Of a DNA stretch of 64,000 nt, positions 1 to 34,600 are shown piece after piece. The first letter of the stretch is position 1. The number at the start of each line of letters is the position of its first letter. A program made the position numbers and the translations under genes. The notes under the pieces were generated by a model that saw nothing but the letters and a program-made list of their open reading frames with translations, was not told where the DNA came from and did not search any database. Origin of the DNA: Rhodococcus pyridinivorans (GTDB lineage: Bacteria > Actinomycetota > Actinomycetes > Mycobacteriales > Mycobacteriaceae); NCBI RefSeq assembly GCF_900105195.1, contig NZ_FNRX01000002.1, forward strand, positions 930,001 through 994,000, read 5' to 3'.

Positions 1-125
1 GGAACATCGAGACGGCGTGGACGCGCACACCGTAGGTGGCCAGGGCGAGAGCGGCTGTGCCGCCGGCGGGACCGAGTCCGACGATGATGACGTCGGTGTC
101 GTACGTGGGGTCGTGGTCGTTCATG
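1..125 (-). CDS. FAD-dependent monooxygenase, N-terminal fragment (runs off window)
   Basis: Only the first 41 codons are in the window, read from an ATG at 123-125. The residues contain a dinucleotide-binding beta-alpha-beta motif, DVIIVGLGPAGG, typical of the FAD-binding 3 family of aromatic hydroxylases (MhpA/PheA-like). The MFS gene stop lies 9 bases upstream, so the two are probably one minus-strand transcription unit. Such enzymes hydroxylate phenolic rings with NAD(P)H and O2. The substrate cannot be inferred from this fragment, and other FAD-dependent oxidoreductases share the motif. Confidence 0.7.
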
Positions 126-134
126 GTGGTCACT

Positions 135-1541
135 TCACTTGTCCAAGGTCTGCAGGGACTGTGCGGCGTCGGTGGTGGGCGGAGTCGAAAAGGATGCGGT
201 GGCAGTTGCATTCGGTGTCGAGGTGCGCTTGTCGGCAACCAGTTGGCGTGTCGCGCCCTTGCGTCCCCAGCCGCCGGGCAGCAGGATCACCGAGACCACC
301 GAGATGGCCGAGACGATCAGTAGGTAAAGCACGATCGAGTTGCTGGTGTTGGTGGAGGCGTACAGGGCGGTCGCAATGGTCGGGGCGAACGCCGAGCCCG
401 CGACCTGGGAGAGCGTGTAGCCGATCGAGACGCCGCTGTAGCGCACATCCGCATCGAAGATCATGGTGAACAGCGATCCGGTTACTCCGGCGGCGGGGGC
501 CATAGAGATGCCGAAGACCAGTACCTGCGCGGTCATGAAAAGCCAGGGGTTTCCGGTGTTGATCAGTGCGAAGGCCGGGCCGATCGCCACCCCCATGGTG
601 ACGGCGCCGAGCAGGTACATGGTCTTGCGGCCGAAGGTGTCCGACAAGGCGCCGAAGACGGGATAGAGGAGGACGGCGACGAGGCCGGCGACGAACACGC
701 TGGCCAGGGCGAAGGTGCGGCTGATTCCGGCGACGGTGGTGCCGTAGGAGACGAGATACGCCATGCAGATGTAGGCGAACACTCCCTGGGACAGGTAGGT
801 GCCGGCAATGAGGAAGATTTCTTTCCAGTGCTTGCGGAATGCGACGGCGATCGGCATCCGCACTACAGCACTGTTGGCTTTGATCTCGGCGAAGTCGGGG
901 CTTTCGGTCAGGGACAGGCGGATGAACAGGCCGATTACGATCAGGACCGCGCTGAACAGGAACGGTAGCCGCCAGCCCCAACTGAGGAACTGCTCGTCCG
1001 GGAGTTGAGAAGCGGCGAAGAACGCCAGGGTCGCAATGCTCGTCCCGGCGGGAGCACCCATCTGTGAGAAGGAGCCGAAGAATCCTTTCTTCGCGGTGGG
1101 GGCATGCTCGACGGCCATCAAGGTGGCGCCACCCCATTCACCGCCTACGGCGAAGCCTTGAACCAGGCGCAGCAAGGTGAGCAGGATCGGAGCGGCGATG
1201 CCGATCTGGGCGTAACCGGGTAGCAGTCCCATCAGTACTGTGGTGGCACCCATACCGACGAGAGAGATGACGAGCATCTGTTTGCGGCCGACCCGGTCAC
1301 CGAAGTGGCCGAAGACGATGCCTCCGAGGGGTCGGGCGAGGAATCCGACGCCGAAAGTAGCGAAGGACAACAGGATTCCGATAGCAGGTGAAGCATCGGG
1401 GAAGAACAAGGTGGGGAAGACCAGTGCGGCCGCAGTGCCGTAGATGAAGAAGTCGTAGTACTCGACGGTGGTCCCTACGAAGCTGGCCAGGGCGACCCGC
1501 ATCGGGGAGGTCTTCGTTGCGGAAGTCGGCGCGGTGGTCAC
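135..1541 (-). CDS. MFS transporter, metabolite:H+ symporter (MHS) type
   Basis: A 468-residue integral membrane protein with about 12 hydrophobic segments. The first helix begins near residue 15, and the loop 2-3 signature GHFGDRVGRK lies at 78-87. The EYYDFFIYG segment near residue 27 and the VQGFAVGGEWGG segment are characteristic of the MHS family (ShiA/ProP/KgtP-like), which imports organic acids with protons. The GTG start at 1539-1541 is preceded by a GGGGGAA ribosome site; a longer frame upstream lacks membrane character. The gene lies directly before a flavin monooxygenase start, which suggests uptake of the aromatic acid that enzyme attacks. A palindrome about 150 bases upstream resembles one beside the GntR gene. 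Substrate unknown. Confidence 0.85.
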   Translation of the reverse strand: MTTAPTSATKTSPMRVALASFVGTTVEYYDFFIYGTAAALVFPTLFFPDASPAIGILLSFATFGVGFLARPLGGIVFGHFGDRVGRKQMLVISLVGMGATTVLMGLLPGYAQIGIAAPILLTLLRLVQGFAVGGEWGGATLMAVEHAPTAKKGFFGSFSQMGAPAGTSIATLAFFAASQLPDEQFLSWGWRLPFLFSAVLIVIGLFIRLSLTESPDFAEIKANSAVVRMPIAVAFRKHWKEIFLIAGTYLSQGVFAYICMAYLVSYGTTVAGISRTFALASVFVAGLVAVLLYPVFGALSDTFGRKTMYLLGAVTMGVAIGPAFALINTGNPWLFMTAQVLVFGISMAPAAGVTGSLFTMIFDADVRYSGVSIGYTLSQVAGSAFAPTIATALYASTNTSNSIVLYLLIVSAISVVSVILLPGGWGRKGATRQLVADKRTSTPNATATASFSTPPTTDAAQSLQTLDK

Positions 1542-1682
1542 GGTGTGGTTCCCCCGCTGCGAGTGTCGGAGCAGGCTGGCACTGCGAACAATGCTGGGTG
1601 CGAGGCGGTCGTCATGGCCGCGCCTTTCGTCTGAGATTCGTCGGGATGTCGAAGAGGGCCGCCGCAGAAAGGGGCCGAGCAA

Positions 1683-1703
1683 CTGGAATGCTAGACGTCT
1701 AGC
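1683..1703. promoter_or_regulatory. Candidate GntR operator upstream of the MFS gene
   Basis: A perfect 14-bp palindrome, GCTAGACGTCTAGC, at 1690-1703 is overlapped by CTGGAATGCTAG at 1683-1694. The same 12-mer occurs, reverse-complemented, in the palindrome at 2719-2738 in front of the GntR and LLM genes. Sharing between two promoters beside a FadR/GntR-type gene suggests one regulator binds both. This is inference from sequence repetition only. Confidence 0.45.
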
Positions 1704-1876
1704 TGCGAAGCTACTCCAGCGCGAATGGTGACGCAAGTCTCTGTCGGAGGAGGCTGGATCGCACTGTGGCGATCATTGTGATGCGGCGCTGCCTGAAGAT
1801 ACAGCGCCGCAGGCGGGGCGGAAGCCTGTAGGCCTGCCCGGTCGTGCAGAATCCGTTATAGGGAGCGGGCTCACCA

Positions 1877-2617
1877 TCAGCGCGATGGCTGAGCACTCGA
1901 TTCGTCGCGAATGACCGCAATCGTGCCGACGATATGGCGCTCCATCGCCTCACGCGCCGCAGCGGCATCGCGATTTCGGATCGCCTCGGCGATCTCGTGA
2001 TGGTCGTGCTGGCGGTCGGGTAACGCACTCGCGAGCGGGTTGGTGATGCCGGCGGTGTTGATCAGGAAATCCGACAGATCCCACATCCGCTGACTGGTCT
2101 CCTCCATGATCCGTGAATGCGCCATCGCATGGATGGCGGCATGGAATTCCCTGTTGTGAACTCGGTATCCGTGGGCGCGGACCTCGGGGTCGTCGGAGGC
2201 GATCAAGGCATCGACGCGTGCAGAGATCAGATCCAGCTCCCGCACCTGCGCCTCGGTTCGCCGCGTGGCCGCCACCGCAGCAATGGCTCCTTCGAAACCA
2301 CCGAACAGGGTGAAGAAGTCCTCGACCTCACGCGGGGTGTAGGAAACGACCTCGCACCCGACCTGGGGGACGATGTAGACCAGTTTGTCGCTCGAGAGGC
2401 GACGCAGGGCATCCATGACCGGCTGTTTGCTCACCCCGAATTCCTGCCGAATCGACTCGACGACGATCTTCTCGCCAGCTGTATAGCGGCCTTCGAGCAA
2501 TCGGGTCTTCAAGATGTCGTAGAGCGCGGAGGACAGACGTGCCCCGGAGGTGCGGACGTGCGCAAGGAGGGCGGCAGCCTCGGTGCTAGCCGTCGGGCCG
2601 GGATCGGTCGAGGTCAT
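1877..2617 (-). CDS. GntR family transcriptional regulator, FCD (FadR) subfamily
   Basis: A 246-residue protein with an N-terminal winged helix-turn-helix (ESIRQEFGVSKQPVMDALRRL, about residues 53-73) and a C-terminal all-helical FCD domain. That domain has metal/ligand-type histidines in NREFHAAIHAMAHS and DHHEIAEAI. I chose the ATG at 2615-2617 because GGAAAG lies about 9 bases upstream; an upstream ATG at 2701 would add 28 unstructured residues. The regulator sits between the MFS gene it probably controls and a divergent LLM gene. FCD regulators are usually released from DNA by a carboxylic acid effector. The effector is unknown here. Confidence 0.85.
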   Translation of the reverse strand: MTSTDPGPTASTEAAALLAHVRTSGARLSSALYDILKTRLLEGRYTAGEKIVVESIRQEFGVSKQPVMDALRRLSSDKLVYIVPQVGCEVVSYTPREVEDFFTLFGGFEGAIAAVAATRRTEAQVRELDLISARVDALIASDDPEVRAHGYRVHNREFHAAIHAMAHSRIMEETSQRMWDLSDFLINTAGITNPLASALPDRQHDHHEIAEAIRNRDAAAAREAMERHIVGTIAVIRDESSAQPSR

Positions 2618-2718
2618 CGGCTCAGGCTTTCCGTCGGTTATCGGGTGGTGCTGGGAGCTGAAGGCAGCGACTTGCATTCTAGTACTTGTGGTGTGAGTCA
2701 CTGTGAGCTACGTTCATC

Positions 2719-2738
2719 TGGAACGCTAGCATTCCAGT
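2719..2738. promoter_or_regulatory. Candidate GntR operator in the GntR/LLM intergenic region
   Basis: A 20-bp inverted repeat, CTGGAACGCTAGCATTCCAG, with one mismatched pair, lies about 100 bases upstream of the GntR start and 145 bases upstream of the LLM start. Read on the minus strand it carries CTGGAATGCTAG, identical to 12 bases at 1683-1694. A weaker half-copy (GCATTCTAG) occurs at 2674-2682. Position and repetition fit an autoregulated divergent promoter. Confidence 0.5.
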
Positions 2739-2882
2739 TCGCGATCAGTGGGCAGCATCCCCGATTGCGGAATCCCCTCCGGAGGCATGCACACCCGTAG
2801 TGAGGCCGTCGGACACATCCCCGCTACGACGGGTAGGACGAGCCAAGTGCACACCCCTGGGCCCCGTGCAAGGAGAAAACTT

Positions 2883-3956
2883 ATGGAATTCTGTATCGGC
2901 ACCTGCGCCAAGATCGACCAGGTCGCGATGGTGAAGCAGGCCGAGGACCTCGGGGTCACTCACTTCGGTGTCGGCGAAGGCCCGTTGCTGTTCTCCGATC
3001 CGTACCAGTTCCTCGCCCTGGCTTCGCAGCAGACCACCGGCATCCACCTGGGCACCATGGTCACCAATCCATTGACCCGCATCGCCCCCGTCACCGCGAA
3101 CTCCATGGCCACTCTCAATGCCCTGGCGCCAGGCCGAACCTTCCTCGGTATCGGTACCGCCAACAACGCGCTGCGTTCCATGGGTAACCGCACCGCGAAG
3201 ATCTCCGAACTGTCCCACGCCATCGAGGTCTCCCGTGAACTGATGGCAGGCCACCGGGTCAACCACACCTGGCTCGGACAGTCCCGGGAAGTGGAGTTCC
3301 TCGACAAAGAAAGTGGCTTCTACAACGTCACCGACCACATCCCGATCTGGGTTGCTGCCGGCGGGCCCCGCGGTCTTGCCGAAGCAGCCAAATACGCCGA
3401 CGCCGTCGTCTACTGCCTCGGACCGAACATCGACATGATCCAGATGATTCGTAGGCTCCTGGACAAAGCCGTCGCCGATGCAGGACGAGCCCCAGGCTCT
3501 GTCAAGCTCGTCTCGTTGTCCTGGTTCTACCAACTCGGCAACGGAGAAACCTGGGAAGACGGCGTCACCAACGGCTTCGGATCCGGACCGATCAGCTCAT
3601 GCATCACCAACGCCGGACTGATGGACCAACACCGCGACGAACTCGGCGACTCGATCGTCGACGCCTCACTCACCGCCGCCCAGCAATACCTCGGCGACCC
3701 GAAATCCGCGGACCAACCGCACTATCTCGACGTCTGGGCGAAGTACCTGCGCGGCCTCGACCCCCGGCACCGTCCGATCATCACCAAGGAACTCGTCGAC
3801 TACTGGTGCCTGTACGGCTCTCCTGCCGAGCTACGAGAAAAAACAGCCCTGATGCGCGAAGCCGGCGTCGACATCCTTCAAGTCTTCCTGTCCAACCCAC
3901 GCACAGCCGCCCGCGACATCGACAACATCGGGCATTCGATCCTCGCCCACGTCTGA
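2883..3956 (+). CDS. LLM class flavin-dependent oxidoreductase
   Basis: A 357-residue luciferase-like monooxygenase-fold protein. The N-terminal strand (MEFCIGTCAKIDQVAMVKQA), the segment VTNPLTRIAPVTANSMATLN and the LGIGTANNALRSMGN phosphate-binding region fit the F420- or FMN-dependent LLM superfamily. The ATG at 2883 has an AAGGAG site 7 bases upstream and is preferred over the in-frame upstream start at 2748. It is followed after 29 bases by the hydrolase-fold gene, so both are probably co-transcribed and divergent from the GntR gene. An LLM oxygenase next to an isochorismatase-fold protein recalls the RutA/RutB arrangement in pyrimidine ring opening, but this protein is not specific enough to name a substrate. 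Confidence 0.8.
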   Translation: MEFCIGTCAKIDQVAMVKQAEDLGVTHFGVGEGPLLFSDPYQFLALASQQTTGIHLGTMVTNPLTRIAPVTANSMATLNALAPGRTFLGIGTANNALRSMGNRTAKISELSHAIEVSRELMAGHRVNHTWLGQSREVEFLDKESGFYNVTDHIPIWVAAGGPRGLAEAAKYADAVVYCLGPNIDMIQMIRRLLDKAVADAGRAPGSVKLVSLSWFYQLGNGETWEDGVTNGFGSGPISSCITNAGLMDQHRDELGDSIVDASLTAAQQYLGDPKSADQPHYLDVWAKYLRGLDPRHRPIITKELVDYWCLYGSPAELREKTALMREAGVDILQVFLSNPRTAARDIDNIGHSILAHV

Positions 3957-3985
3957 TCCTTCCCCGTTCTGCCCAGGAGATACTG

Positions 3986-4606
3986 ATGGAACTCGACCCG
4001 CGTACCACTGCGCTCGTGGCTGTCCACTGTCAAGGCGACGTCGTCGAAGCTACCGGCGCCTTCGCCGACTTCTTCTACCAGCAGGTGACCGAGCGCAAGG
4101 TCATCGACCGCATAGCCACGCTCATCACCGCCGCCCGTACCGCCCACACCACGATCGTCTACACCCGGGTCGCATGGAAGCCGGACTTGTCCGATCTCGA
4201 CGCCAACTCGCCCCTACTCGGCATCGTCGCCCAATCCGGTTGCCTCAAGGAAGGCAGCGAACTCGCCGAGATCATCGAACCCCTCACGCCGCATGATGAG
4301 GACACCGTGCTCACTCACCAGCGCATCGGAGCCTTCGCCCGTACCGACCTCGATACCATCCTACGCAGCAAAGGCATCACCACCCTCCTCTTCGCAGGTG
4401 TGGCCACAAACGCCTCCGTCGAGGGAACAGCCAGGGTCGCAGGCGATCTCGGATACCGAGTGGTGATCGTCGAGGATGCATGCTCTGCGGCCACTCTCGC
4501 AGCGCATCAAGCCAGCATCGACTCCCTCGCGCTACTGGCCGAGATCAGCACCGTCGACGAAGTCCGCGCTGCTTTGGCTACGACGATCACCGGCACCCCG
4601 GTTTGA
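3986..4606 (+). CDS. Isochorismatase-like cysteine hydrolase-fold protein with altered triad
   Basis: A 206-residue isochorismatase-superfamily protein. The fold is clear from ALVAVHCQGD (residues 9-18), THQRIGAFARTDLD (110-123) and LLFAGVATNASVEGTAR (134-150). In active members these three positions hold Asp, Lys and Cys. By this alignment they are His14, His111 and Ser144, so the classic Asp-Lys-Cys chemistry is not available. The ATG at 3986 is preceded by AGGAG. The gene is probably cotranslated with the LLM gene upstream. It may be a divergent hydrolase, use serine chemistry, or be non-catalytic. The IS256 element begins 67 bases downstream. Confidence 0.75.
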   Translation: MELDPRTTALVAVHCQGDVVEATGAFADFFYQQVTERKVIDRIATLITAARTAHTTIVYTRVAWKPDLSDLDANSPLLGIVAQSGCLKEGSELAEIIEPLTPHDEDTVLTHQRIGAFARTDLDTILRSKGITTLLFAGVATNASVEGTARVAGDLGYRVVIVEDACSAATLAAHQASIDSLALLAEISTVDEVRAALATTITGTPV

Positions 4607-4673
4607 CCGCCGACACCAGTTCTCGGGCACAGCGCGTCGATGCCTATCCGCCCTCACATTGCTGATCTCAGAC

Positions 4674-6042
4674 GGGACTGTAAGAACAACGGTGTAACTC
4701 TGAAAGGAGATGCACCACCATGACCGATGTGATTGATCGTGAGGACGAATCGAACTCGGCACCTGTGGGTGTCAGCGATGCCCGGCTGCAGGAACTGGTG
4801 GATCAGGCGCGGGCCGAAGGCCTCCAGCTCACCGGCGAGGGCGGGTTGCTGGCGAAGTTGACCAAGCTGGTGGTGGAGTCCGCCCTCGAGGGCGAGATGG
4901 ACGACCACCTCGGCTACGGCAAGAATGACCCGGCCGGCAGGGGCAGCGGCAACTCCCGCAACGGCAGACGCGCCAAGACCGTGCTGACCGAGGCCGGCCC
5001 GGTCGAGCGCGACGTACCCCGGGACCGGGAGTCCTCGTTCGAGCCGAAGATCGTGGCCAAGCGGCAGCGGCGGCTGACCGGGGTGCAGGACATGGTGATC
5101 TCGCTGTCGGCCAAGGGACTGACCACCGGTGAGATCTCTGCGCACCTGGCCGAGGTCTACGGCGCCGAGGTGTCCAAGCAGACGATCTCGACGATCACCG
5201 AACGGGTGATGGACGGCATGGCCGAGTGGCAGAACCGGCCGCTGGACCCGGTGTATCCGGTGCTGTTCATCGACTGCATCCACGTCAAGATCCGCGACGG
5301 CAACGTGGCCAACCGGCCGATCTACGTCGTGATGGGGGTGACTGTGGACGGCACCCGCGACATCCTCGGATTATGGGCCGGCGAGCACGGCGACGGGGAG
5401 GGGGCGAAGTATTGGCTTCGGGTGTTGTCGGAGCTGAAGAATCGTGGTGTGCAGGATGTGCTGATCGTCGTGTGCGACGGTCTGAAGCATCTGCCCGACT
5501 CGATCGGGCAGGTGTGGCCGCAGACCATCGTGCAAACCTGCGTGGTCCACCTCCTCCGCAATACCTACGCCTACGCCTCCCACAAGGACTGGGCCGAGAT
5601 CGCCAAGGACCTCAAACCGGTGTACACCGCGCCGTCGGAGCAGGCCGCGCTGGACCGGTTCGCCGAGTTCAGCGACAAATGGGAGAAACGCTATCCCGCG
5701 ATCATCCGGCTCTGGACCAACACCTGGGCCGAGTTCGTGCCGTTCCTGCAGTTCGACAACGCCATCAGACAGGTCATCTACACGACCAACGCCATCGAAA
5801 GTGTCAACGCCCGAATCCGCAGGGCCGTCAAGGCCCGCGGTCATTTCCCGACCGAGGCCGCGGCCCTGAAATGCGTGTACCTGGCCATCATGAGCCTCGA
5901 TCCCAAAGGCACCGCCCGCCAACGCTGGTCCAACCGCTGGAAGGCAGCACTGAACGCCTTCGAGATCACCTTCGACGGACGCCTGTCCGCTGGACGAAAG
6001 TAGCTACAGTTCAACCAGTTACACCGTTAACTTGACAGACCC
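4674..6042 (+). mobile_element. IS256-family insertion sequence, apparently complete
   Basis: A 1369-bp element with one intact transposase and imperfect 26-bp terminal inverted repeats at 4674-4699 and 6017-6042. Both repeats end in GGG(A/T)CTGT and share the inner block AACGGTGTAACT. No 8-bp target duplication is visible (tctcagac on the left, ccatcagt on the right). The two flanks may therefore have been brought together by recombination or deletion rather than by simple insertion. Confidence 0.85.
4720..6003 (+). CDS. IS256 (mutator) family transposase
   Basis: A 427-residue DDE transposase. The catalytic residues appear to be Asp185 (FIDCIHVK), Asp253 (VVCDGLKH) and Glu360 (TTNAIESVN), with the family hallmark RQVIYTTNAIES. 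The ATG at 4720 follows an AAAGGAG site. The frame is undamaged and the inverted repeats are present, so the element may still be active. It separates the left catabolic genes from the minus-strand stress operon, whose last gene ends only 28 bases from the right end of the element. Confidence 0.93.
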   Translation: MTDVIDREDESNSAPVGVSDARLQELVDQARAEGLQLTGEGGLLAKLTKLVVESALEGEMDDHLGYGKNDPAGRGSGNSRNGRRAKTVLTEAGPVERDVPRDRESSFEPKIVAKRQRRLTGVQDMVISLSAKGLTTGEISAHLAEVYGAEVSKQTISTITERVMDGMAEWQNRPLDPVYPVLFIDCIHVKIRDGNVANRPIYVVMGVTVDGTRDILGLWAGEHGDGEGAKYWLRVLSELKNRGVQDVLIVVCDGLKHLPDSIGQVWPQTIVQTCVVHLLRNTYAYASHKDWAEIAKDLKPVYTAPSEQAALDRFAEFSDKWEKRYPAIIRLWTNTWAEFVPFLQFDNAIRQVIYTTNAIESVNARIRRAVKARGHFPTEAAALKCVYLAIMSLDPKGTARQRWSNRWKAALNAFEITFDGRLSAGRK

Positions 6043-6069: not shown

Positions 6070-6519
6070 TCAGAGGAGTTGATGGAAGATGTCGAGGGTG
6101 ACGTTCCACTCGGCGGTCCCGGGGTTTTTGCGGTCCGGCTGGATAGTGACGAAAGTGCGCGCCAGCGCCACGCTCAAGCCGCCGGCAATCAGCGGTAGCC
6201 GCTGCTCGGTCTCCTCGGAGAGGGCTACGTCCAAGGGCGGTCGGGCCGCCAGTTGGTCGAGCAGAGGTTGAAGTTCGATCTCCTCGTCCAGCTTCTCGAA
6301 TCGGTCGATGCTCTCCTGCAGCCCCTTGGTGATCGGCAGGTCCCACGGTTCGATCACGTCCCGCAGGTTTGCCTTTGCCGAGGCCTTGCCGATGAGGATC
6401 ACGTCGTAGATCTTGTCGTCGATGAAATCCGTATAGCGCTTGAGGTCGTTCCGGTCGACGTGCAGTCCAGCCGCTACCCGGAAGAACCGCTGGAATTTCA
6501 CGGTGCCCATCACTGGCAT
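6070..6519 (-). CDS. DUF1931 family histone-fold protein
   Basis: A 149-residue protein beginning MPVMGTVKFQRFFRVAAG, with the family block NLRDVIEPWDLPITKGLQESI in the middle. It matches my knowledge of DUF1931, a bacterial and archaeal family whose solved members (from Aquifex and Thermus) fold like a single-chain histone dimer. DNA binding by this member is unproven. The start at 6517-6519 has AGGAG 8 bases upstream; an upstream ATG at 6576 would overlap the preceding gene. It is the last gene of the stress operon, 4 bases after the TrxR-like gene, and it ends next to the IS256 element with no terminator visible. Confidence 0.8.
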   Translation of the reverse strand: MPVMGTVKFQRFFRVAAGLHVDRNDLKRYTDFIDDKIYDVILIGKASAKANLRDVIEPWDLPITKGLQESIDRFEKLDEEIELQPLLDQLAARPPLDVALSEETEQRLPLIAGGLSVALARTFVTIQPDRKNPGTAEWNVTLDIFHQLL

Positions 6520-6523
6520 GTCG

Positions 6524-8245
6524 TCAGCTCCTCTCGAAGTATTCATGGATTTGGCGAACCGCCATCGCTCCTTCACCGACAGCGGATGCGACCCGTTTCA
6601 CCGAGCCGCTGCGGACGTCACCCGCCGCGAACAGACCGGGCCGGCTGGTTTCGAGCGTCCTCGACAACCCGGCGCCGATCCGCCGGTCGCCGTCCCCTCG
6701 GGCGCGGACCGCGTCCAGGCCCGTGAGTACGAAGCCGTGGTCGTCGAGTGCGATCGCGTCGGCCAGCCACCCGGTATGCGGCATCGCCCCGATGAAGACG
6801 AACAGGGCGTGCACCCCGATCGTGTCCTGTTCCCCCGTGCGATTGTCCTCGACCACAATTTCTTCGAGGTACTTCTCACCGTGGACCGTACGAACCTCGG
6901 TATTCCGGTGCACGGTGACGCGCGGATGGCGCTCGATCTGGTCGACCAGGTATCGGGACATACTTTTTCCGAGGTCGTCGCCGCGGATGAGCAGGTGAAC
7001 GTGGGAGACATGGTCGGCGAGGAAGACGGTGGCCTGTCCGGCGGAGTTTCCGCCGCCGACGATAGCCACCGGGTCGGTGCCGCACATCCGCGCTTCCTGA
7101 TGGGTTGCGGCGTAATACACGCTCGTCCCCTCCAGTGCCTCGATTCCCGGAACCGTCAACTTGCGATATCGCGCCCCGGTGGCGAGCACGAGGGCCCGGC
7201 CGCGGATCTCGCCGCCGTCCGCCAGTTGGAGCACATGGTTCCCGGCCTCGGATCCCAAACCGGTCACCTCCGCCGACACGAGAAGGCGGGTACCGAACTT
7301 CCCGGCCTGAATCACGGCCCGCTCGGCCAATTCGGCACCGGAGATCCCCGCCGGAAAGCCCAGGTAGTTCTCGATCCGGGAGGAGGTACTGGCCTGGCCG
7401 CCCGCGGCGATCGACTCCAGTGTCACCGTGTTCAACCCGTCCGAGGAGCCGTACACGGACGCGGCCAGACCGGCCGGTCCCGCACCCACCACGACGAGGT
7501 CGCACACGTCCTGGGCCGCGTCCGGGACCGGGACCGGAAGCCCGACGATGCGGGCTAGTTCCGCATTCGTCGGATTGCGCAGCACCTTCTCGCCGTGCCA
7601 GATCACGACGGGAGTATCCTCTGGGGCGACACCCAGGCTGCGCAGCAGCTGCTCCGCCCGTTCGTCCCGCTCCAGATCGATCCACCGGTGGGGCAATCGG
7701 TTGCGCATCGCGAACTCCCGAAGCCGCAACGTATCCGGGGAATAGCAGGAGCCGATGATCCGGAACCCCGAACCGAGCCCGATCAGCAGGTGCCGGCGCA
7801 CCAGGTAGGCCCGCAGGATCAGATCGCTGAGCACAAGATCGTGGGCCACCAGCGCGCGCACCCGCTCGGCCGGGACGACGAGCACCTCGCCGTCCTCGAT
7901 CACCTCGGCGGTGAAGAACGCCACCTGGCCATCCAGCAGTCCGAGCTCGCCCAGGAAGCGGCCCGGGCCGTGCACGCGCAGTATCCGGCGTTCGCCGTCC
8001 ACGGCGCCCTCGTCGATGACCGCGACCTTGCCGGAGAGGATGACGAAGAAGTCGTTGCTGGGCGCGCCCTCTCGGATCAGCACCTCGCCGGTGTGAACCG
8101 ATCGACGCGTGCCGCCGACCTCGAGCGTCGCGACCTGGTCGTCCGTCAGCCGTGGGAAAGCACCTTCCTCGTCCGGAGTCTCGTCGTCGACCGGCGGACT
8201 GTCGGGGACGGGTGCGGCGTCCTCAGACGAAGTTCTGGTCGACAT
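6524..8245 (-). CDS. Cyclic-nucleotide-binding domain / thioredoxin reductase-like flavoprotein without CxxC
   Basis: A 573-residue fusion. Residues about 32-150 form a cNMP-binding beta-roll (FFVILSGKVAVIDEG; GRFLGELGLLDGQ), 160-236 resemble a glutaredoxin-like domain, and 248-573 are a thioredoxin reductase-type FAD/NADPH module. That module has GAGPAGL at 254-260, VGGGNSAG at 396-403 and a C-terminal FAD motif GLFAAGDVR. The redox CATC motif expected before the NADPH site is replaced by AATH (379-382), so ordinary thioredoxin reduction is unlikely. Its start overlaps the UBP zinc-finger gene by 23 bases, which indicates translational coupling. It may be a diaphorase-like or regulatory flavoprotein; the electron acceptor is unknown. 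Confidence 0.85.
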   Translation of the reverse strand: MSTRTSSEDAAPVPDSPPVDDETPDEEGAFPRLTDDQVATLEVGGTRRSVHTGEVLIREGAPSNDFFVILSGKVAVIDEGAVDGERRILRVHGPGRFLGELGLLDGQVAFFTAEVIEDGEVLVVPAERVRALVAHDLVLSDLILRAYLVRRHLLIGLGSGFRIIGSCYSPDTLRLREFAMRNRLPHRWIDLERDERAEQLLRSLGVAPEDTPVVIWHGEKVLRNPTNAELARIVGLPVPVPDAAQDVCDLVVVGAGPAGLAASVYGSSDGLNTVTLESIAAGGQASTSSRIENYLGFPAGISGAELAERAVIQAGKFGTRLLVSAEVTGLGSEAGNHVLQLADGGEIRGRALVLATGARYRKLTVPGIEALEGTSVYYAATHQEARMCGTDPVAIVGGGNSAGQATVFLADHVSHVHLLIRGDDLGKSMSRYLVDQIERHPRVTVHRNTEVRTVHGEKYLEEIVVEDNRTGEQDTIGVHALFVFIGAMPHTGWLADAIALDDHGFVLTGLDAVRARGDGDRRIGAGLSRTLETSRPGLFAAGDVRSGSVKRVASAVGEGAMAVRQIHEYFERS

Positions 8246-8489
8246 AACACCACCGCCAATCCTCGCCGGGTTCCATCGACTGGACGATCGGATGGCCGAT
8301 GCTGTGGGCGTGCGCGCTCGCGTGCTTACCCGGCGAGGAGTCGCAGCAACCGACGTGTCCGCACGTCAGGCACAGCCTCAGATGCACCCACGGGGTTCCG
8401 AGGCGAAGACATTCCTCGCAACCCTGCGGAGTCCGGGGCGCCACGGGCCGGATCGCGATCACATGTGGGTCCGCGTGGGCAAAAGTCAT
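8223..8489 (-). CDS. UBP-type zinc finger domain protein
   Basis: An 88-residue protein that is almost entirely a ZnF-UBP domain. Its zinc ligands are visible as CEEC (24-27), CLTCGHVGCC (40-49) and histidines in GKHASAHAHSIGHP. In eukaryotes this fold binds the ubiquitin C-terminus. Actinobacteria carry stand-alone versions of unknown role, often beside redox enzymes. The gene overlaps the thioredoxin gene upstream (ATGA) and the TrxR-like gene downstream, so it belongs to the same operon. The partner or ligand is unknown. Confidence 0.85.
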   Translation of the reverse strand: MTFAHADPHVIAIRPVAPRTPQGCEECLRLGTPWVHLRLCLTCGHVGCCDSSPGKHASAHAHSIGHPIVQSMEPGEDWRWCYVDQNFV

Positions 8490-8938
8490 GAGTTCGCCTC
8501 ATTGCCTGCTTTTTCCGAGAGCGCCTGATCGAGCCATGTGCGCAGCTGGGGTACCGGAGCGGCGCCCGCCTGACGAGCGAGGACCTCACCTCGGTCCATC
8601 ACCAGCAGCGTCGGTACGGCGCGGACGGTGAACCGTTCGGCCGTCTGGGGTGCAGCATCCACGTCGACCTTGACGAGCTTGATCTGACCTGCGCGTTCTG
8701 TGGCGAGCTGCTCGAGCGCGGGGCTGACCATGCGGCACGGAGCGCACCACGTCGCCCAGAGGTCAACGAGTACAGGCACCGAGGATTTCTCGGCGACCTC
8801 CGCGAAGTCGCCGTCCCCGGCCGAGGCGATCCAGGGCAGCGGCTCGTGGCAATTTCCGCAGCGGGGTCTCCCGTTCCCGGCCGCCGGTACCCTGTTGACC
8901 TTGCCGCAGTGTGGGCACTTCACCGTGTCGGATCTCAT
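8486..8938 (-). CDS. trxC: Thioredoxin with N-terminal zinc ribbon (TrxC/Trx2 type)
   Basis: A 150-residue cytoplasmic thioredoxin. Four cysteines (8, 11, 27, 30) form the zinc ribbon typical of thioredoxin 2, and the active site is WCAPC at 64-68, followed by the cis-proline motif AVPTLL. It reduces disulfides in substrate proteins. Trx2-type zinc ribbons are linked to oxidative stress sensing in E. coli TrxC. The gene begins 14 bases after clpB and overlaps the zinc-finger gene by 4 bases. The neighbouring reductase-like protein lacks CxxC, so the physiological reductant is probably encoded elsewhere. Confidence 0.88.
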   Translation of the reverse strand: MRSDTVKCPHCGKVNRVPAAGNGRPRCGNCHEPLPWIASAGDGDFAEVAEKSSVPVLVDLWATWCAPCRMVSPALEQLATERAGQIKLVKVDVDAAPQTAERFTVRAVPTLLVMDRGEVLARQAGAAPVPQLRTWLDQALSEKAGNEANS

Positions 8939-8952
8939 GACGACACCCCTTC

Positions 8953-11583
8953 TCAGGCCGCGATGGCGGGTTCCGTATATGCGACGGACAGTTCGCCGTC
9001 ATCGACCGTGACATCGATGGTGCCGCCCGGTTCGATTTCGCCGCGCAACAGCGCACGACCTATCCTGGTTTCGACCTCATGGGCGATATACCTGCGCAGG
9101 GGTCGTGCACCGTAGACCGGGTCGAAACCGTGTTCGGCGATGAGCCGGCGTGCTTCCGGTGTGATATTCAAGTGTATCTGTCTCTCTGACAATCTGTTCC
9201 GAAGGTCGGTGAGTTGTAGCTCGACGATATGTTCGATCTGGGGCAGTGTGAGCGGGGTGAACAACACGATGTCGTCGATCCGGTTGAGGAACTCGGGACG
9301 GAAGTGCCCGCGCAGTTCCGCCAGCACCCGCGCCCGGGCGTCCGGCTTGATCTCGCCGTCGGCTGTGACTCCGTCGAGGAGATGCTGGGATCCGATGTTG
9401 GAGGTCATGATGATCACCGTGTTCCGGAAATCGACCTGCCTGCCTTGGGAATCGGTGATCCGGCCGTCATCGAGCACCTGTAGAAGGGTATTGAAGACGT
9501 CGGCGTGGGCCTTCTCGATCTCGTCGAAGAGCACCACGGAGTACGGCTTGCGGCGCACCGCCTCGGTGAGCTGACCCCCCTCGTCATACCCGACGTACCC
9601 GGGGGGTGCACCGATGAGTCTGCTCACCGTGTGCCGTTCCTGGTACTCGCTCATGTCCAGGCGCACCATGTTGTCTTCGCTGTCGAAGAGGGCACTGGCC
9701 AGCGTCTTTGCGAGTTCGGTCTTCCCCACACCTGTCGGGCCCAGGAAGATGAACGAACCGATCGGCCGGCGCGGATCGCGGATACCCGACCTTGCTCTGA
9801 TTACCGCGTCTGCGACCAGTTGCACTGCCTCGTCCTGACCGATGACTCTCTCGTGCAGGATCTCGTCGAGCTTCAACAGTTTCTCCCGCTCGCCTTCCTG
9901 CAGTCGAGCGACCGGGATACCCGTCCATGCGGCCACGATCTCGGCGATCTCGTCTTCGGTGACCACCTCGCGCAGCAACGGATTGCGGCCTTGCCTGGTG
10001 GCCAATTGCTCCTCCGCCGCCTTGAGTTTGCGTTCGAGCTCGGTGATCTCGCCGTATCGCAGCTCGGCGGCCCGATTGAGGTCGTAATTGCGTTCGGCCT
10101 CCTCGGCTTCGTGGCGCAACCGTTCCAGCTCTCCCCGTAGCTCCTGCACCCGACGGATCGCTTGGCGCTCTGCCTCCCACTGCGCGTGCCGGGCGTCGGC
10201 CTCGGCCCGCAGATCGGCCAGCTCCTTGCGCAGCTCGTCGAGACGCGCCTTGCTGGCCGCGTCCGTTTCCTTGGACAGCGCGGCCTCCTCGATCTCCAGG
10301 CGGGTCACCTTCCGGGTGAGCTCGTCGAGTTCGGCGGGCATCGAATCGATTTCGGTTCGTAGCCGCGCACACGCCTCATCTACCAGATCGATCGCTTTGT
10401 CCGGCAGGAAGCGGTCGGTGATGTACCGGTGCGAGAGGGTCACGGCGGCCACCAGTGCGCCGTCCTGGATCTTCACGCCGTGAAACACCTCGAGGCGTTC
10501 GCGAAGTCCGCGCAGAATCGAGATTGCATCCTCGGCACTGGGCTCGTCGACGAGAACGGTCTGGAATCGACGCTCCAATGCTGCATCGGATTCGATGTGC
10601 TTGCGATACTCGTCGAGAGTGGTGGCACCGATCATGTGCAGTTCGCCGCGGGCGAGCATCGGTTTGAGCATGTTGCCGGCGTCGAGAGATCCCTCGCCGC
10701 CGACCGATCCTGCGCCGACGACGGTGTGTAACTCGTCGACGAACAACAGGATGCGCCCCTCGGCCGCTTTCACCTCGGACAGCACCGCCTGCAGCCGTTC
10801 CTCGAACTCGCCGCGGTACTTCGCGCCGGCCACCAGGGAACCCATGTCGAGCGAGAAGATCGTTTTGTCGCGTAGGCCCTCGGGCACGTCGCCGCGGACG
10901 ATCCGCTGGGCGAGGCCCTCGACGATCGCGGTCTTGCCGACGCCGGGGTCGCCGATCAGCACCGGATTGTTCTTCGTTTTCCGGCTCAGGATCTGCGTTA
11001 CCCTGCGGATTTCGGCGTCTCGCCCGATGACCGGATCGAGTTTGCCTGCTCGGCCCTCGGAGACGAGGTCGCGTCCGTACTTCTCGAGCGCCTCGTACGC
11101 ACCCTCCGGGGTGGCCGAGGTGACGCGCTGGTTGCCGCGCACTGTGGTCAAGGCGGCGAGGAAGGTCTCTCGTGTGACCCCATGACTGGCGAGGACCCGT
11201 CCGGACGCACTGGCCGATCCCTCCTCGGAGAGGGCCATCACGAGATGCTCCACCGACACGTAGGAATCCTTGAGTCGCTTCGCCTCCCGTTCCGCGGCGT
11301 CGAGCAGCTTGGCCAGGCGCTGGGTGATCATCACCTGACCGGGCGTCGCGCCGGGGCCGCTGACCTTCGGCCTGCGCGAGAGTTCACGTTCCAGATCGGA
11401 GCGTAGGGCGTCGACGTTCGCGCCGGCCTGCTCGAGCAGTCGGGGTACCAGCCCGTCCTGCTGATCGACCAACGCGAGCAGCAGGTGCTCTCCGTCGACC
11501 TCGGTGTGACCCATTCTGGTCGCTACGTTCTGGGCTTCCTGCAGGGCTTCTCGTGACCTTTCAGTCAGGCTGCCGGTGTCCAT
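8953..11583 (-). CDS. clpB: ATP-dependent disaggregase ClpB
   Basis: An 876-residue Hsp100 protein with an N-terminal Clp_N repeat domain (1-145), a first AAA+ module (Walker A GDPGVGKT, 211-218), a long charged coiled-coil middle domain (about 400-530), and a second AAA+ module with GPTGVGKT near residue 610. Together with DnaK, GrpE and a J-protein it rescues aggregated proteins. The ATG at 11581-11583 has AAGGAGG 7 bases upstream and overlaps the end of the CbpM-like gene by 19 bases. A core chromosomal clpB is expected elsewhere in a Rhodococcus genome, so this is probably an accessory copy (inference). Confidence 0.95.
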
Positions 11584-11894
11584 GGGGGTGTCCTCCTTCT
11601 GCGGGACGCTGCTTCGAGTTTCTCGATTCGATCCAGCAGATCGAGCACGAGCCCGATTGCCGAGTAGTTCAGGCCTAGACCCGTCCGCAACCGTTGGATG
11701 CGGGCAGCGTGGGCCACTGCTGACGGTTCGAACAATATTTCGCCGCCGGGGTCGCGGCGTGCGTCGATCAGGCCGAGAGCCACGAGTTTTCTTGCCAGGT
11801 CGGGGTGCAGCCCGGTACGTTCGGCGAAGACATCCAGCGACATTCCGGTACGGCGAACCAATATGTACTGGGTGACCGGGGTGGGGGTGCTCAT
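11565..11894 (-). CDS. CbpM-like / MerR-like chaperone modulator
   Basis: A 109-residue protein with an N-terminal MerR-like helix-turn-helix ([25 protein letters not shown]) and a C-terminal helix [15 protein letters not shown]. Its position right after a CbpA-like J-protein (ATGA overlap) matches CbpM, which binds and inhibits the J-domain of CbpA. The alternative, an HspR-type repressor, is less likely because HspR is longer and I see no clear HAIR operator before dnaK. It overlaps clpB by 19 bases. Confidence 0.7.
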
Positions 11895-12823
11895 GGCTGT
11901 TTCCTCGGGTCGAAGTTCGATTCGGCGGCCAACTGTTCGAACAGCTCGCGTTCGCGTGCTGTCGGTTTCGATGGCACCATCACCTTGATTTCGGCGTAGA
12001 GGTTGCCGTTGGAGCCTCGCGGGTTGGGCATGCCTTCTCCGCGCAGGCGCAGCTTCCTACCTGTCGACGAGCCCGGTACGACTTTGACTTTCGCCTCACC
12101 GCCGGGAGTGGGAACGGCGACCGTCGCGCCGAGGGCTGCTTCCCAGGGGGAGACGGGAAGGTCGACGTAGATGTCCCGGCCCTGTACGCGGAACCGGGCA
12201 TGCGGTTTGATCCGGACCACGAGGTACAGATCCCCGGGCGGTGCGCCGCCGTTGCCTCGGCCCCCTTGCCCGGCCAGCCGGATTCTTTGGCCGTCGAGGA
12301 CACCGACCGGAATGTCGACGTCGTATCGTCGTCCGTCCAGACGGAGAGTGCGTTTGCCGCCCCGGTACGCCTCTTCCAGGGTCAGTTCCAGTTCCGCTTC
12401 CTGATCGGCGCCGGGAATCGGGCCGTACGCGCCACCGCCGCCGAACATCTGTCCGAAGAGGTCCTCGAAGTCGACGCCGCCCTCGCCACCGAAACCTTGA
12501 CCGAAGTGCACCCTTCTGCCGCCGGCCCCGCCCCCGCCGCCGTACCCACCGCCGCCGTACCCGCCTGCGCCGGCCCGGACCCGTTCGTCGTAGTCCTCGG
12601 GTACCCGCCGGAAGTCGTCCCCGAATCGGTCGTAGCGTTTCCGGGTGTCCGGGTCGGACAACACATGGTAGGCCTCATTGATCTCTTTGAACTTGTCTTC
12701 CGCAGTGGGGTCTTTGTTGATGTCGGGGTGATATTTGCGGGCAAGTCGGCGGTAGGCCTGCTGGATTTCGTCGGTGTCGGCGCTGCGCGGGACCCCGAGC
12801 GCTTCGTAGTAGTCACGCGCCAT
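11891..12823 (-). CDS. cbpA: J-domain co-chaperone, class B (CbpA/DnaJ-like without zinc finger)
   Basis: A 310-residue Hsp40. The N-terminal J-domain ([11 protein letters not shown], with YHPDINKD carrying HPD) is followed by a Gly-rich linker with repeated GYGGGG and by two DnaJ C-terminal beta domains. The four CxxCxGxG zinc motifs of DnaJ are absent, so it is CbpA-like. I prefer the ATG at 12821-12823, with AGGAG 8 bases upstream, over the GTG overlapping the grpE stop. It stimulates DnaK ATPase and delivers substrates; its CbpM-like partner follows directly. Confidence 0.9.
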
Positions 12824-12828
12824 GGCGC

Positions 12829-13353
12829 TCACTCCTCAGGTCGGCTGACGACCACGGTGGCGGGACGCAATTGCTGTCCGTTTTCTCCGTAACCTGGCCG
12901 CAAGACCTCGATCACGGTCCCGGAGGGAAGGTCGGGTTGGGCCACCACACTGACTACTTCGTGGAGTTCCGGGGTGAACGGCACACCGACCTCGTCGTGG
13001 CGCTCGAAGCCGAGCCGTGACAGCACCTGCACCGCCTGATCCCGGATCGCCTTCACACCCTCGACGACGGCCTGAGGATCGCTATCCGCATGGGCCAGCG
13101 CGAGCTCCAAGTTGTCCAGGACAGGCAGCCACGCCGCCGATACCCTCGCTGTCTCCGCGGCGCGTTCACGGTCGAGATCTTTGGCATACCGCTTGCGCAG
13201 GTTGTCCAGATCTGCGAGTGCTCTGCGCCAGCGGTCCTCGAGTCGAGCCAGCTTGGCTTCGGTATCGGTGTGATCAGGCCTCGTCTCGGTCTGGTCCGTG
13301 TCAGTATGGTCGGTAGCCTGCTCGGTCGTCGAATGATCAGCAGATCTGTCCAT
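12829..13353 (-). CDS. grpE: Nucleotide exchange factor GrpE
   Basis: A 174-residue GrpE. An acidic, disordered N-terminus (about 1-35) is followed by a long coiled coil ([26 protein letters not shown]) and the C-terminal beta-wing with [20 protein letters not shown]. It releases ADP from DnaK. The ATG at 13351-13353 has GAGG 6 bases upstream; a TTG overlapping the dnaK stop is possible. It sits between dnaK and the J-protein gene with 5-8 base junctions, the normal order for the DnaK machine. Confidence 0.92.
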
Positions 13354-13361
13354 CAGGTGCC

Positions 13362-15242
13362 TCAACTCCGATCGAACTCGGCGTCGATCACGTCGTCGTC
13401 ATCCGACGACGCAGCGTCTCTTCCGCCGGTCTGGTATCCCTCGCCGCCGTTTTGAACCGCTGCAAGCCCGTAGAGCAACTGCTGCAGCTCCGAGGTCAGT
13501 GGCTCTACCTCCGAGGGTGGAGCACCGTCTTCTACAGCCTTCCTCGCGTCGGCGATCAACATCTCGGCACGCGCTTTCTCGTGCGGTGGCGCACTGTCAC
13601 CCAGTTCGGCAAGTCGCCGTTCCACCTGGTAGGCAACCGAATCGAGGGCGTTACGTGCGTCGACCGCCTTGCGCAGCTCCTCGTCCTCACGCCGGTTCCG
13701 TTCGGCCTCGGCGAGCATGCGCTCGACCTCGCTCTGGTCGAGGTTGCCCTGTTCGCTGATCGTGATGCTCTGCTCCTTGCCGGTGTCTTTGTCACGGGCG
13801 GTGACGTTGAGAATGCCGTTGGCATCGATATCGAATGTGACTTCGACCTGCGCCTCGCCGCGTGGCGCAGGTCGGATGTCTTCCAGCCGGAACCGGCCCA
13901 GCACCCGGTTGTCGGCGGCGCGTTCGCGTTCGCCCTGCAGGACTACGACGTCCACGGCGGACTGATTGTCTTCCGCTGTGGAGAACACTTCGCTGCGTCG
14001 GGCGGGGATCGTCGTGTTGCGCTCGATGATCTTGGTCATTACCCCGCCCTGCGTCTCGACGCCGAGGGACAGTGGGGTGACGTCGAGCAACAGTACGTCG
14101 GAGACCTCACCTTTGAGCACGCCTGCCTGGACCGCGGCACCGAGCGCCACGACCTCGTCCGGGTTGACGCCCATGTGGGGATCCTTACCGCCGGTGAGCC
14201 GGCGAACGAGTGCCTGTACCGCCGGAATGCGTGTCGAACCACCGACCAGGATCACCTCGTGGATGTCGTTGGCGGTGATCTTGGCGTCACTCATTGCCTG
14301 CTTTACCGGACCGAGGCAGCGTTCCACCAGATCTGCCGTCAGATCCTCGAACTTCGATCGCATGATCGTGGTGGTGAGGTGTTTGGGGCCGTTCGCGTCT
14401 GCGGTGACGAAGGGCAGGTTGACCTGGGCTTGAGTTACCGAGGACAACTCGACCTTGGCCTTCTCTGCCGCCTCGAAGAGTCGTTGCAGCGCTTGTGGAT
14501 CCTTGCGCAGATCGATGTTCTCCGCGCTCTGGAACTCGTCGGCGAGGTAGTCCACCAGGCGCCGGTCGAAATCGTCTCCGCCGAGGTGGGAGTCGCCGGC
14601 CGTCGAGCGAACCTCGACTACTCCCTCGCCGACATCGAGCAGGCTCACATCGAACGTGCCGCCGCCGAGGTCGAAGACCAGTACGGTCTCGTGGGTCTGT
14701 TTGTCCATGCCGTACGCCAATGCCGCCGCGGTCGGCTCGTTGATGATCCGCAGGACCTCGAGGCCCGCGATCCGGCCGGCGTCCTTGGTGGCGTTGCGCT
14801 GCGCGTCGTTGAAGTAGGCCGGAACGGTGATGACCGCTTCCTTGACCTTCTCGCCAAGGAACTTGCTGGCGTCGTCGACGAGTTTGCGCAGCACCAGGGC
14901 ACTGATCTCCTCTGGTGCGTACTTCTTACCTCGCACGTCGAATCGTGCCTCACCGTTGTCGCCCGGTACGACGTCGAAGCTGACCGCTTTGGCCTCCTCG
15001 GAGATCTCGTCGAAATGACGTCCGATGAAGCGTTTCGCCGAGTAGATCGTGCCCTTCGGGTTCAGGATCGCCTGTCGTCGGGCCAGCTGACCCACCAGGC
15101 GCTCGCCGCTATCGGTGAATGCCACCACCGACGGCGTCGTCCGCGCACCCTCGACATTGGAGATCACCACCGGTTCGCCGCCTTGCCAGCTTGCGATGAC
15201 CGAGTTGGTGGTGCCCAAGTCGATGCCTACCGCAGTTGCCAT
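13362..15242 (-). CDS. dnaK: Hsp70 chaperone DnaK
   Basis: A complete 626-residue Hsp70. It has the ATP-binding [12 protein letters not shown] at the N-terminus, [14 protein letters not shown], the interdomain [15 protein letters not shown], and a C-terminal lid ending in an acidic [10 protein letters not shown] tail. It is the first gene of the minus-strand stress operon; the ATG follows AAAGGA. The upstream 400 bases show no clear HspR inverted repeat (HAIR), so control may differ from the main actinomycete dnaK operon. The neighbourhood (clpB, grpE, J-protein, thioredoxin) argues for a self-contained protein-repair unit. Confidence 0.95.
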
Positions 15243-15245: not shown

Positions 15246-15530
15246 TCATTCCTTTCGATTGGTCCGGCCGGTGAGTCGGCGGACGGCTTGGTCCGCGACT
15301 TCGACGTCGGCGAGGACTTCGGAGTGCCGTGGTTGTGTAGGGACATGGTCGTAAGGACTGGGAACGAGGTGAAGTCGCGCTGGCTGCCCTGTCCTGTGAT
15401 GCGTGCATGACCAGGCCGAACGGAGCGCCGACAACGGCACCGAAGATCGGCGCGTAGAAGCTGAGATCGAGGCGTGTACACGGCGGCCGGCCTCGGTGGA
15501 GTAATCCAAAAATCCAGCCTAATGGTGTAG
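15246..15530 (-). pseudogene. Remnant of a general stress protein 17M-like gene
   Basis: Minus-strand pieces in different frames resemble the C-terminal half of actinobacterial general-stress proteins of the GSP-17M/DUF family: YAPIFGAVVGAPFGLVMHAS, then GSQRDFTSFPVLT, then SEVLADVEVADQAVRRL just before dnaK. The order and spacing are right but at least two frameshifts separate them. This is a recognition by eye with no alignment; the stretch may only be the dnaK leader. Confidence 0.4.
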
Positions 15531-16066
15531 CTGTCCACGCGCCTGCGGCGGCGCGGGCGCGGCCCAGCGGTAGTTCAGTGTGCCGATGACCTATTCGACC
15601 GGCTCCCGCCACTGGACTCTGACATCACCTCCCTGCCTGATGGGTTGGCCGGCCAGAATATCTCCGTGTGGTGCCGCTGCCGCGGATGCCTGGGGTTTTG
15701 CGTAGGGGCAGTCCCAGTGTCATCCGATGCGGTTCGGCCGCAGTGAGAATTGTCGCGTCAGGATTGCGTGAGTCCTGCATGTACCTAGCCTCTACTCGGT
15801 CCGGGGCACTTCTCAGTATCGCCCAGAACGGTGCCTACCGTCATGGAATGGGGGAATCGACGCGGCGGGCTCAAGTATTGGTCGTAACCCTGCTGATTGG
15901 AGAGAAGTGTGCGGATGGGACGAAGAGAGCAAGACGGGAGTAGAGTGTCGACAACGCTTGAATTCGAGGCCGATGCGACGGTGGAGAACGAGAGCACCGT
16001 GTCGGTGTGTGGCTAGTCTGCCTAATTCTCCATTCTGATCCTGGGAAGACTGTCGATTCCGCGTCC
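15531..16066. other. Gene-free stretch between dnaK region and IS21 remnant
   Basis: About 535 bases with only short frames that show no family resemblance. It presumably contains the dnaK operon promoter or its lost upstream neighbour. I see no strong hairpin, HspR-type repeat or RNA gene. Confidence 0.4.
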
Positions 16067-27694: not shown

Positions 27695-27729
27695 CATCTG
27701 TATCAACCGCACGACACAACCGAGGAACT

Positions 27730-29309: not shown

Positions 29310-29311
29310 TG

Positions 29312-30949: not shown

Positions 30950-30970
30950 GTCGCTGCTCACCTCCATATC

Positions 30971-30988
30971 CTAGTGTTGCAGATCACA
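30971..30988. promoter_or_regulatory. Shared aph-cluster motif, copy 2 (before first AraC gene)
   Basis: CTAGTGTTGCAGATCACA begins 22 bases upstream of the chosen AraC start, exactly the distance found for the second AraC gene. That close position would suit autoregulation. On the plus strand nothing follows it except a decayed stretch. Confidence 0.55.
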
Positions 30989-32315: not shown

Positions 32316-32336
32316 GTTTATCGGTACCTCCGGAAT

Positions 32337-34029: not shown

Positions 34030-34042
34030 ACGGGACGCGACG

Positions 34043-34585: not shown

Positions 34586-34600
34586 GTAAACCCCTCGGAC

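Follow-up and report, generated by a model that had tools for sequence, protein, structure and literature searches.

A second Hsp70-Hsp100 operon in Rhodococcus pyridinivorans is probably a horizontally spread accessory block, carried by Tn7-like transposons in relatives

Where does a second, complete set of chaperone genes in the genome of Rhodococcus pyridinivorans (assembly GCF_900105195.1) come from, how did it move, and what may it contribute to the cell? The set is located in a stretch of 64,000 nucleotides (C2:930001-994000, C2 being the 5.02-Mb contig NZ_FNRX01000002.1), hereafter referred to as the window, and comprises nine minus-strand open reading frames (ORFs) without internal stops, each matching its named Pfam family: DnaK, GrpE, a J-protein, a CbpM/DafA-like protein, ClpB, a thioredoxin, a UBP-type zinc finger protein, a flavoprotein and a DUF1931 protein (Table 1). 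The tight packing of these genes noted in the initial annotation was confirmed, the gaps from dnaK to the DUF1931 gene being 8, -4, -4, -19, 14, -4, -23 and 13 bases with the GrpE and DUF1931 starts set as annotated on related plasmids. In base composition, the block is not set apart from its surroundings (0.649 vs 0.648 for the window). Our results indicate that the block is probably a horizontally spread accessory operon in which genes for a second, complete Hsp70-Hsp100 disaggregase are joined to a redox/zinc tail and a gene for a histone-fold protein, that it is cargo of Tn7-like transposons in relatives, and that the window copy probably stems from a sister transposon fixed on a megaplasmid lineage.

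A core dnaK (C2:1433194, with a MerR-type gene downstream) and a core clpB (C2:1453836) lie elsewhere in the genome, and the block is therefore additional to them. Block and core DnaK share about 56-57% identity, block and core ClpB 60%; a duplicate of the host core operon was ruled out by these values and by the DnaK tree described below (approximately unbiased (AU) test, p=0.011). Within the genus, a block-type ClpB was detected in 2 out of 18 genomes, the second being that of R. zopfii (98%), and the remaining full-length matches reached 58-60%. The CbpM-like gene was matched in 37 out of 401 genomes of the family (E<=1e-12, identity of 44% or more; next match 3e-8, 33%) and in 36 out of 397 genomes of the order, the own genome being included in both counts, and in at least 7 out of 396 genomes of the phylum, this last figure being a lower bound because the query is short. 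In the regions of the 36 other family genomes, some of which are cut off by contig ends, ClpB and DnaJ were found beside the CbpM-like gene in every case, DnaK in 35 and the flavoprotein in 30 (two of them partial). Furthermore, 80 loci were retained from at least 589 relatives of the flavoprotein: DnaK and ClpB were also present in 17 of the 25 actinobacterial loci and in none of the 55 others, and a DUF1931 match adjoined only 3 of these 17. The common gene order from Mycolicibacterium to Streptomyces/Amycolatopsis is (stress protein)-DnaK-GrpE-DnaJ-CbpM-ClpB-Trx-UBP-flavoprotein. The accessory and patchy nature initially proposed for the block is supported by these data, and a single conserved site holding the sole dnaK/clpB copy in relatives was not observed.

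The chaperones of the block also differ from the core set in their lineage. In a DnaK tree of 54 rows, including 29 accessory rows, nine actinobacterial core rows and one Thermus row, all 29 accessory sequences, among them that of the window, formed one clade (100/100), which joined the Thermus row (100/98), the nine core rows standing apart (100/98). A single clade of accessory and core DnaK was rejected (AU p=0.011, two long rows excluded). In the PDB sequence comparison, the block DnaK scored 754 bits with 9dvi, 682 with 7krw and 653 with 6w6e, the block ClpB 1016 bits with 1qvr and 993 with 6dju, and the best relatives of the block DnaJ were 6psi/9dvi. Of these structures, 9dvi, 6psi and 1qvr are from Thermus, 7krw comes from E. 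coli, and the two others, 6w6e and 6dju, from M. tuberculosis. The grouping of the accessory DnaK with Thermus rather than with the host core DnaK suggests that the accessory machine is a Thermus-type DnaK-DnaJ-DafA/ClpB disaggregase. The PDB match of the DUF1931 protein, TTHA1479 (1WWI), originates from T. thermophilus as well, according to the accessible text of PMC12701072.

Evidence for horizontal spread was obtained from plasmids and from DNA comparison across genera. Block DNA was matched by 63 plasmid records, 11 of the 20 listed being examined individually; 10 plasmids (nine from Rhodococcus, one from Nocardia farcinica) carry 80% or more of the 10.7-kb query in one place at 90-96%, and a Gordonia plasmid carries 62% of it at 93%. 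Incomplete copies occur on the R. qingshengii and NJ-530 plasmids, which are devoid of the UBP gene and most of the flavoprotein gene. In Rhodococcus sp. DK17 and DK180 (H7/H16 and H8/H11), the block is present twice per strain, on separate plasmids. At the DNA level, block clpB was closer than core clpB in 28 out of 31 genomes, and in seven genomes of other genera (g9, g11 and g7) block clpB reached 95.3-96.1%, compared to 77-79% for core clpB. Slow evolution as the source of this high cross-genus identity finds no support, because block and core clpB are about equally diverged in three mycobacteria. The flanks of the 31 regions fell into 37 groups, a count that other insertions can inflate; six groups held more than one genome, and both flanks were shared within just two sets, of 2 and 4 genomes.

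The vehicle is visible in relatives. In R. zopfii, in genome G275 and on a Nocardia plasmid, the block represents cargo of a Tn7-like transposon (TnsA, TniA, TniB and TniQ) with ends of the related TGTAGGTTC type. On plasmid pLP1 of R. qingshengii, the block is followed by a gene for an HtrA-type protease (Trypsin_2, PDZ) and then by the TniQ, TniB, TniA and TnsA genes. An identical left end, TGTAGGTTCTCGCGATCGG, is found in pLP1, R. zopfii and G275 next to three different outside sequences, and the right end TGTAGGTTCCGCGGATCGG is common to N. farcinica, R. zopfii, G228, G303 and G275. Elements with both ends were recovered from R. zopfii (18,859 bp), G275 (23,020 bp) and the N. farcinica plasmid (21,950 bp); all three have TGT-type terminal repeats and perfect 5-bp target duplications (AAACC, GGCCG and CTGTA, respectively). 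All four transposition genes match at full length in R. zopfii; TniA is in pieces in G275, and on the N. farcinica plasmid TniQ is interrupted, with an IS3 element nearby. TniQ and TniB scored above the Pfam cut-offs, TnsA-N just below (25.1 vs 26.5) and rve clearly below (23.6 vs 32.6), and for the intact relatives gene order and full-length relatives agree in identifying the Tn7-like gene set. Besides the HtrA-type protease, the cargo includes a heat-induced YflT domain. Together with plasmid carriage and cross-genus clpB identity, these elements substantiate the earlier suggestion that the block is mobile.

Further observations concern elements related to this transposon or to its cargo. 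In R. zopfii (L144, right end at 2079), the outer flank reads AACCTACA-AAACC, in which another TGTAGGTT-like end, perhaps left by an earlier insertion, adjoins the target duplication. Related transposition modules carry other cargo, as on plasmid p1 of Gordonia pseudamarae (L269), on which a TnsA-TniA-TniB-TniQ module adjoins copper and heavy-metal genes. A divergent island on the Nocardia farcinica HB204 plasmid (L100, 3853-15236) encodes an HtrA-type protease, an M48 protease, ClpB, CbpM, DnaJ, GrpE, DnaK, a stress protein, a STAS protein and two Hsp20 proteins, and has no thioredoxin, UBP or flavoprotein gene.

The target-duplicated insertions in three different backgrounds, the plasmid carriage and the cross-genus excess of block over core clpB identity (95-96% vs 77-79%) speak against an old actinobacterial accessory operon that was inherited mainly vertically, often lost and picked up by a transposon in one branch, its mobility being incidental. 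We regard this explanation as unlikely, although it would account for the gene order shared without a transposon from mycobacteria to Streptomyces/Amycolatopsis at 60-90% protein identity, for the equal divergence of both clpB genes in three mycobacteria, for the restriction of transposition genes to a subset of close relatives and for the flanks common to two genome sets.

Regarding the individual proteins, no zinc-finger family was found in the block J-protein by the Pfam search, and it therefore belongs to class B, as initially annotated. The MerR_2 protein matched CbpM in the PDB (9e-6) and remained below the NCBIfam equivalog cut-offs for CbpM (36.2 vs 138) and HspR (33.6 vs 105). The flavoprotein had been described as thioredoxin reductase-like and cyclic nucleotide-binding; the Pyr_redox_2 and cNMP_binding matches agree with this description, but the CxxC of thioredoxin reductases is missing from all 81 alignment rows (C[ATSVGP]xC in 0 of 81), which have one invariant cysteine, Cys388, and the annotated name ('thioredoxin reductase') is therefore no guide to function. 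Similarly, the DUF1931 protein retains its assigned histone fold, but its designation as a DNA-binding-fold protein has to be qualified, since the family is reported, in the accessible text of PMC12701072 and PMC11390915, to be devoid of the histone DNA-binding residues. A search for HAIR and CIRCE motifs picked up HAIR-like sites at the genome's own core dnaK (2 and 3 mismatches). A GGAA-N-GTT pattern located 330-560 bases upstream in some copies of the block was unconvincing as a control site. Anti-phage defence was likewise rejected as a role, PADLOC having returned just two weak matches for seven of the nine proteins, both to the cyclic nucleotide-binding part.

It is quite improbable that the operon works for the plasmid or transposon itself (in replication or transposase assembly, for example) or in other housekeeping instead of stress tolerance. 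Such a role would fit its location on large plasmids and within a Tn7-like element and the absence of detected HAIR or CIRCE control, but chromosomal copies that have no transposition genes next to them keep the operon, and purifying selection acts on the window copy, the ratio of nonsynonymous to synonymous substitution rates (Ka/Ks) being 0.04-0.47 in 45 out of 45 comparisons (nine genes in five relatives). Moreover, the cargo comprises the YflT stress domain and the HtrA-type protease, and two Hsp20 proteins and an M48 protease are additionally encoded by the related island on the Nocardia plasmid.

The window copy itself retains traces of the vehicle. Upstream of dnaK, relatives have an intact tenth operon gene, encoding the YflT-type heat-induced stress protein, which is decayed in the window (about 140 bases missing compared to pN1). 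Directly beyond this relic follows the decayed start of tnsA; both relics had escaped the initial annotation. The same YflT-type/TnsA junction recurs on each of the four sister plasmids examined, namely pN1, pGD02.2.1, PD04 and pA. The TnsA stretch of these plasmids is 51-57% identical to that of pLP1 and is therefore attributed to a sister transposon. Of transposition genes and ends of its own, the window copy has this TnsA relic only.

Both the left flank and a long stretch to the right of the block resemble Rhodococcus plasmid DNA (Table 1), and five plasmids match the adjoining 20 kb to the left over 87-88% at 95-98%, outside the window; C2:1002000-1006000 is present in 18 out of 18 genus genomes, mostly partially. 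Left flank and block are collinear and in the same orientation on four out of four plasmids, but 17-42 kb apart; in the window, an IS256-type insertion sequence (IS) element sits between them (transposase ORF 4720-6003, Transposase_mut E=1.6e-123). This element is without an 8-bp target duplication, whereas its pLP1 relative has a perfect one, and it looks like a deletion scar, probably not a vehicle. It would appear that a megaplasmid segment was integrated into the chromosome and trimmed, with one of the deletions marked by IS256. Alternatively, the plasmid-chromosome junction may be an assembly join. The plasmid-like stretch to the right encodes a catabolic cluster (4-hydroxyphenylacetate hydroxylase-type, dmpG, acetaldehyde dehydrogenase, P450 and AraC regulators; 94-98% to the PD04 plasmid), and ARAGORN reported a doubtful tRNA-His (anticodon ATG) inside a long ORF at 33288-33386.

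Table 1. Features of the window and the evidence for their assignment.
Feature	Positions	Strand	Evidence
Megaplasmid-like left flank	1..4670	.	six Rhodococcus plasmids match at 97.3-98.3%
IS256-type element, probable deletion scar	4674..6042	+	89% to copy on pLP1; adjoins left end of block
DUF1931 histone-fold protein	6070..6510	-	DUF1931 E=6.9e-54; PDB match TTHA1479 2.1e-37
Cyclic nucleotide-binding TrxR-like flavoprotein without CxxC	6524..8245	-	Pyr_redox_2 and cNMP_binding
UBP-type zinc finger protein	8223..8489	-	zf-UBP E=7e-13
Thioredoxin, TrxC-like, probable N-terminal zinc ribbon	8486..8938	-	Thioredoxin E=5.8e-25; Zn_ribbon_Thio2 25.9 bits, below cut-off 27.1
clpB2, Hsp100 disaggregase	8953..11583	-	NCBIfam ClpB equivalog 1332.3 bits, cut-off 1232.1
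CbpM/DafA-like MerR_2 protein	11565..11894	-	MerR_2 E=2.2e-13
Class B J-protein	11891..12832	-	DnaJ and DnaJ_C; PDB best 6psi/9dvi, 4j80 (named DnaJ 2)
grpE2, nucleotide exchange factor	12829..13353	-	GrpE E=4.6e-35; start position taken from related plasmids
dnaK2, accessory Hsp70, Thermus-side lineage	13362..15242	-	HSP70 E=2e-245
Decayed YflT-type general stress protein gene	15249..15660	-	tblastn with intact gene of plasmid pA
Decayed start of Tn7-like tnsA	15652..15795	-	42% over 48 residues, E=4e-5; second search 3.3e-6
Megaplasmid-like DNA right of block	26685..47487	.	Rhodococcus sp. PD04 plasmid: 26685-40000 97.9%, parts of 40000-47487 94.5%

The IS elements had originally been viewed as the boundaries of a mobile unit. 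They are indeed in place, with IS256 adjoining one end of the block and an IstB/IS21 relic (ORF 16067-16576) and an IS110 transposase (17206-18303) beyond the dnaK end, but a composite element in which the IS256 and IS21/IS110 copies move the block is scarcely credible and was ruled out as the main vehicle, given the missing target duplication at IS256, the absence of a second IS256 at the other end within the 25-30 kb compared, the collinear plasmids with flank and block kept well apart, and the Tn7-like vehicle with its ends in relatives.

Several observations weigh against the interpretation of the block as a horizontally spread stress-tolerance operon of Thermus-side origin. No transposon end was recognised in the window with up to 6 mismatches allowed, and no TniA match was obtained in the whole genome by a search run without a positive control; the window copy is therefore not expected to move by itself, and its usual upstream region is lost. 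In 3 out of the 31 genomes (g29, mycobacteria), block clpB showed no excess identity (78.7-80.3% vs 79-82% for core clpB). The grouping of core DnaK with Thermus was rejected weakly (AU p=0.045, two long rows excluded), Thermus forms a long branch, and the tree comprises no Deinococcus, Chloroflexota, Cyanobacteriota or Bacillota. The DafA match of the MerR_2 protein is weak (E=0.0035), and a HAIR or CIRCE site was found in 0 out of 29 accessory upstream regions.

Compared to known systems, the block most resembles in idea the transmissible loci of stress tolerance (tLST; LHR, TLPQC) of Proteobacteria, which raise tolerance to heat, pressure or chlorine. The accessible text of PMC8290217 describes them as mobile islands, on plasmids or chromosomes, that add protein-quality-control genes to the core copies and at times adjoin Tn7-type elements. 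The analogy drawn in the initial annotation is fair, as is its remark on a different gene set: the block occurs in another phylum and has a full DnaK-GrpE-DnaJ set, a thioredoxin and flavoprotein tail and a standard ClpB instead of ClpG/ClpK (ClpK 806 and ClpG 805 bits, cut-offs 1900), and, unlike in tLST, two Hsp20 queries found no match in positions 1-25000 of the window. With the core actinobacterial dnaK-grpE-dnaJ-hspR operon, it shares the order of the first three genes and a MerR-like gene downstream, but it differs in its separate DnaK lineage, its class B DnaJ, the clpB within the operon and the lack of a detected HAIR site upstream. The Thermus thermophilus DnaK-DnaJ-DafA/ClpB system, whose operon presumably has the same gene order as the block, is similar with respect to DnaK lineage (in a limited taxon set), the small partner protein and the best PDB relative of ClpB. 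Its DnaJ is of type II, in line with the missing zinc finger of the block DnaJ, and DnaK, DnaJ and DafA form a 3:3:3 complex (DnaK3-DnaJ3-DafA3) from which substrate expels DafA, as stated in the accessible text of PMC3727329. Mobility, accessory status, the redox tail and the weak DafA likeness set the block apart from that system.

Known Tn7-like transposons with cargo, including an actinobacterial clade in a cargo survey of 2021 (PMC8649781) and Tn7706 of Rhodococcus erythropolis (PMC12915292), share TnsA, TniA/TnsB, TniB, TniQ, terminal repeats and the carriage of cargo, but a whole chaperone machine distinguishes the present elements. Neither chaperones nor DnaK are mentioned in the main text of the survey, nor are chaperones, DnaK or ClpB in that of Tn7706, which was compared by its description only. 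No description of this element was recognised in the open-access papers searched, a search which leaves most subscription journals outside.

Chaperone activity, partner complex, regulation, the stress phenotype, the roles of the tail proteins and the order of events at the locus are what we infer in the following model. The block, comprising DnaK, GrpE, the class B DnaJ, the CbpM/DafA-like partner, ClpB and the tail genes, would spread horizontally, a Tn7-like transposon (TnsA, TniA, TniB, TniQ) carrying it onto plasmids and into chromosomes. For the window copy, a sister transposon would have lost its transposition genes and become fixed on a Rhodococcus megaplasmid lineage, part of whose backbone then ended up in the chromosome contig. 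In standby, by analogy with Thermus, the CbpM/DafA-like protein may hold DnaK2 and DnaJ2; under heat or oxidative stress, aggregated clients would release this DnaK-DnaJ-DafA assembly and pass to ClpB2 for threading and refolding, alongside the core machine. Thioredoxin and flavoprotein might repair oxidised clients, or sense the redox state and a cyclic nucleotide. We lean slightly towards the more specific proposal that one Tn7-like lineage spreads among Actinobacteria a self-contained Thermus-type Hsp70-Hsp100 disaggregase that brings along its own J-protein partner and has the CxxC-less cyclic nucleotide-binding flavoprotein as redox arm, the chaperone core having come from outside Actinobacteria, from the Thermus side, and working beside the host machine as a counterpart, built from different parts, of the proteobacterial stress-tolerance island.

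Transmissible heat-resistance islands have been described mainly from Proteobacteria, according to the accessible text of PMC8290217. If the interpretation is correct, a transposon that, in another phylum, carries a full and separate Hsp70-Hsp100 machine would mean that bi-chaperone systems are exchanged whole, as cargo. A cell holding both core and foreign disaggregase would represent a natural two-machine experiment, in which client choice, partner specificity and co-chaperone cross-talk therefore become testable, and the block may be of relevance to stress-tolerant Rhodococcus strains in biodegradation.

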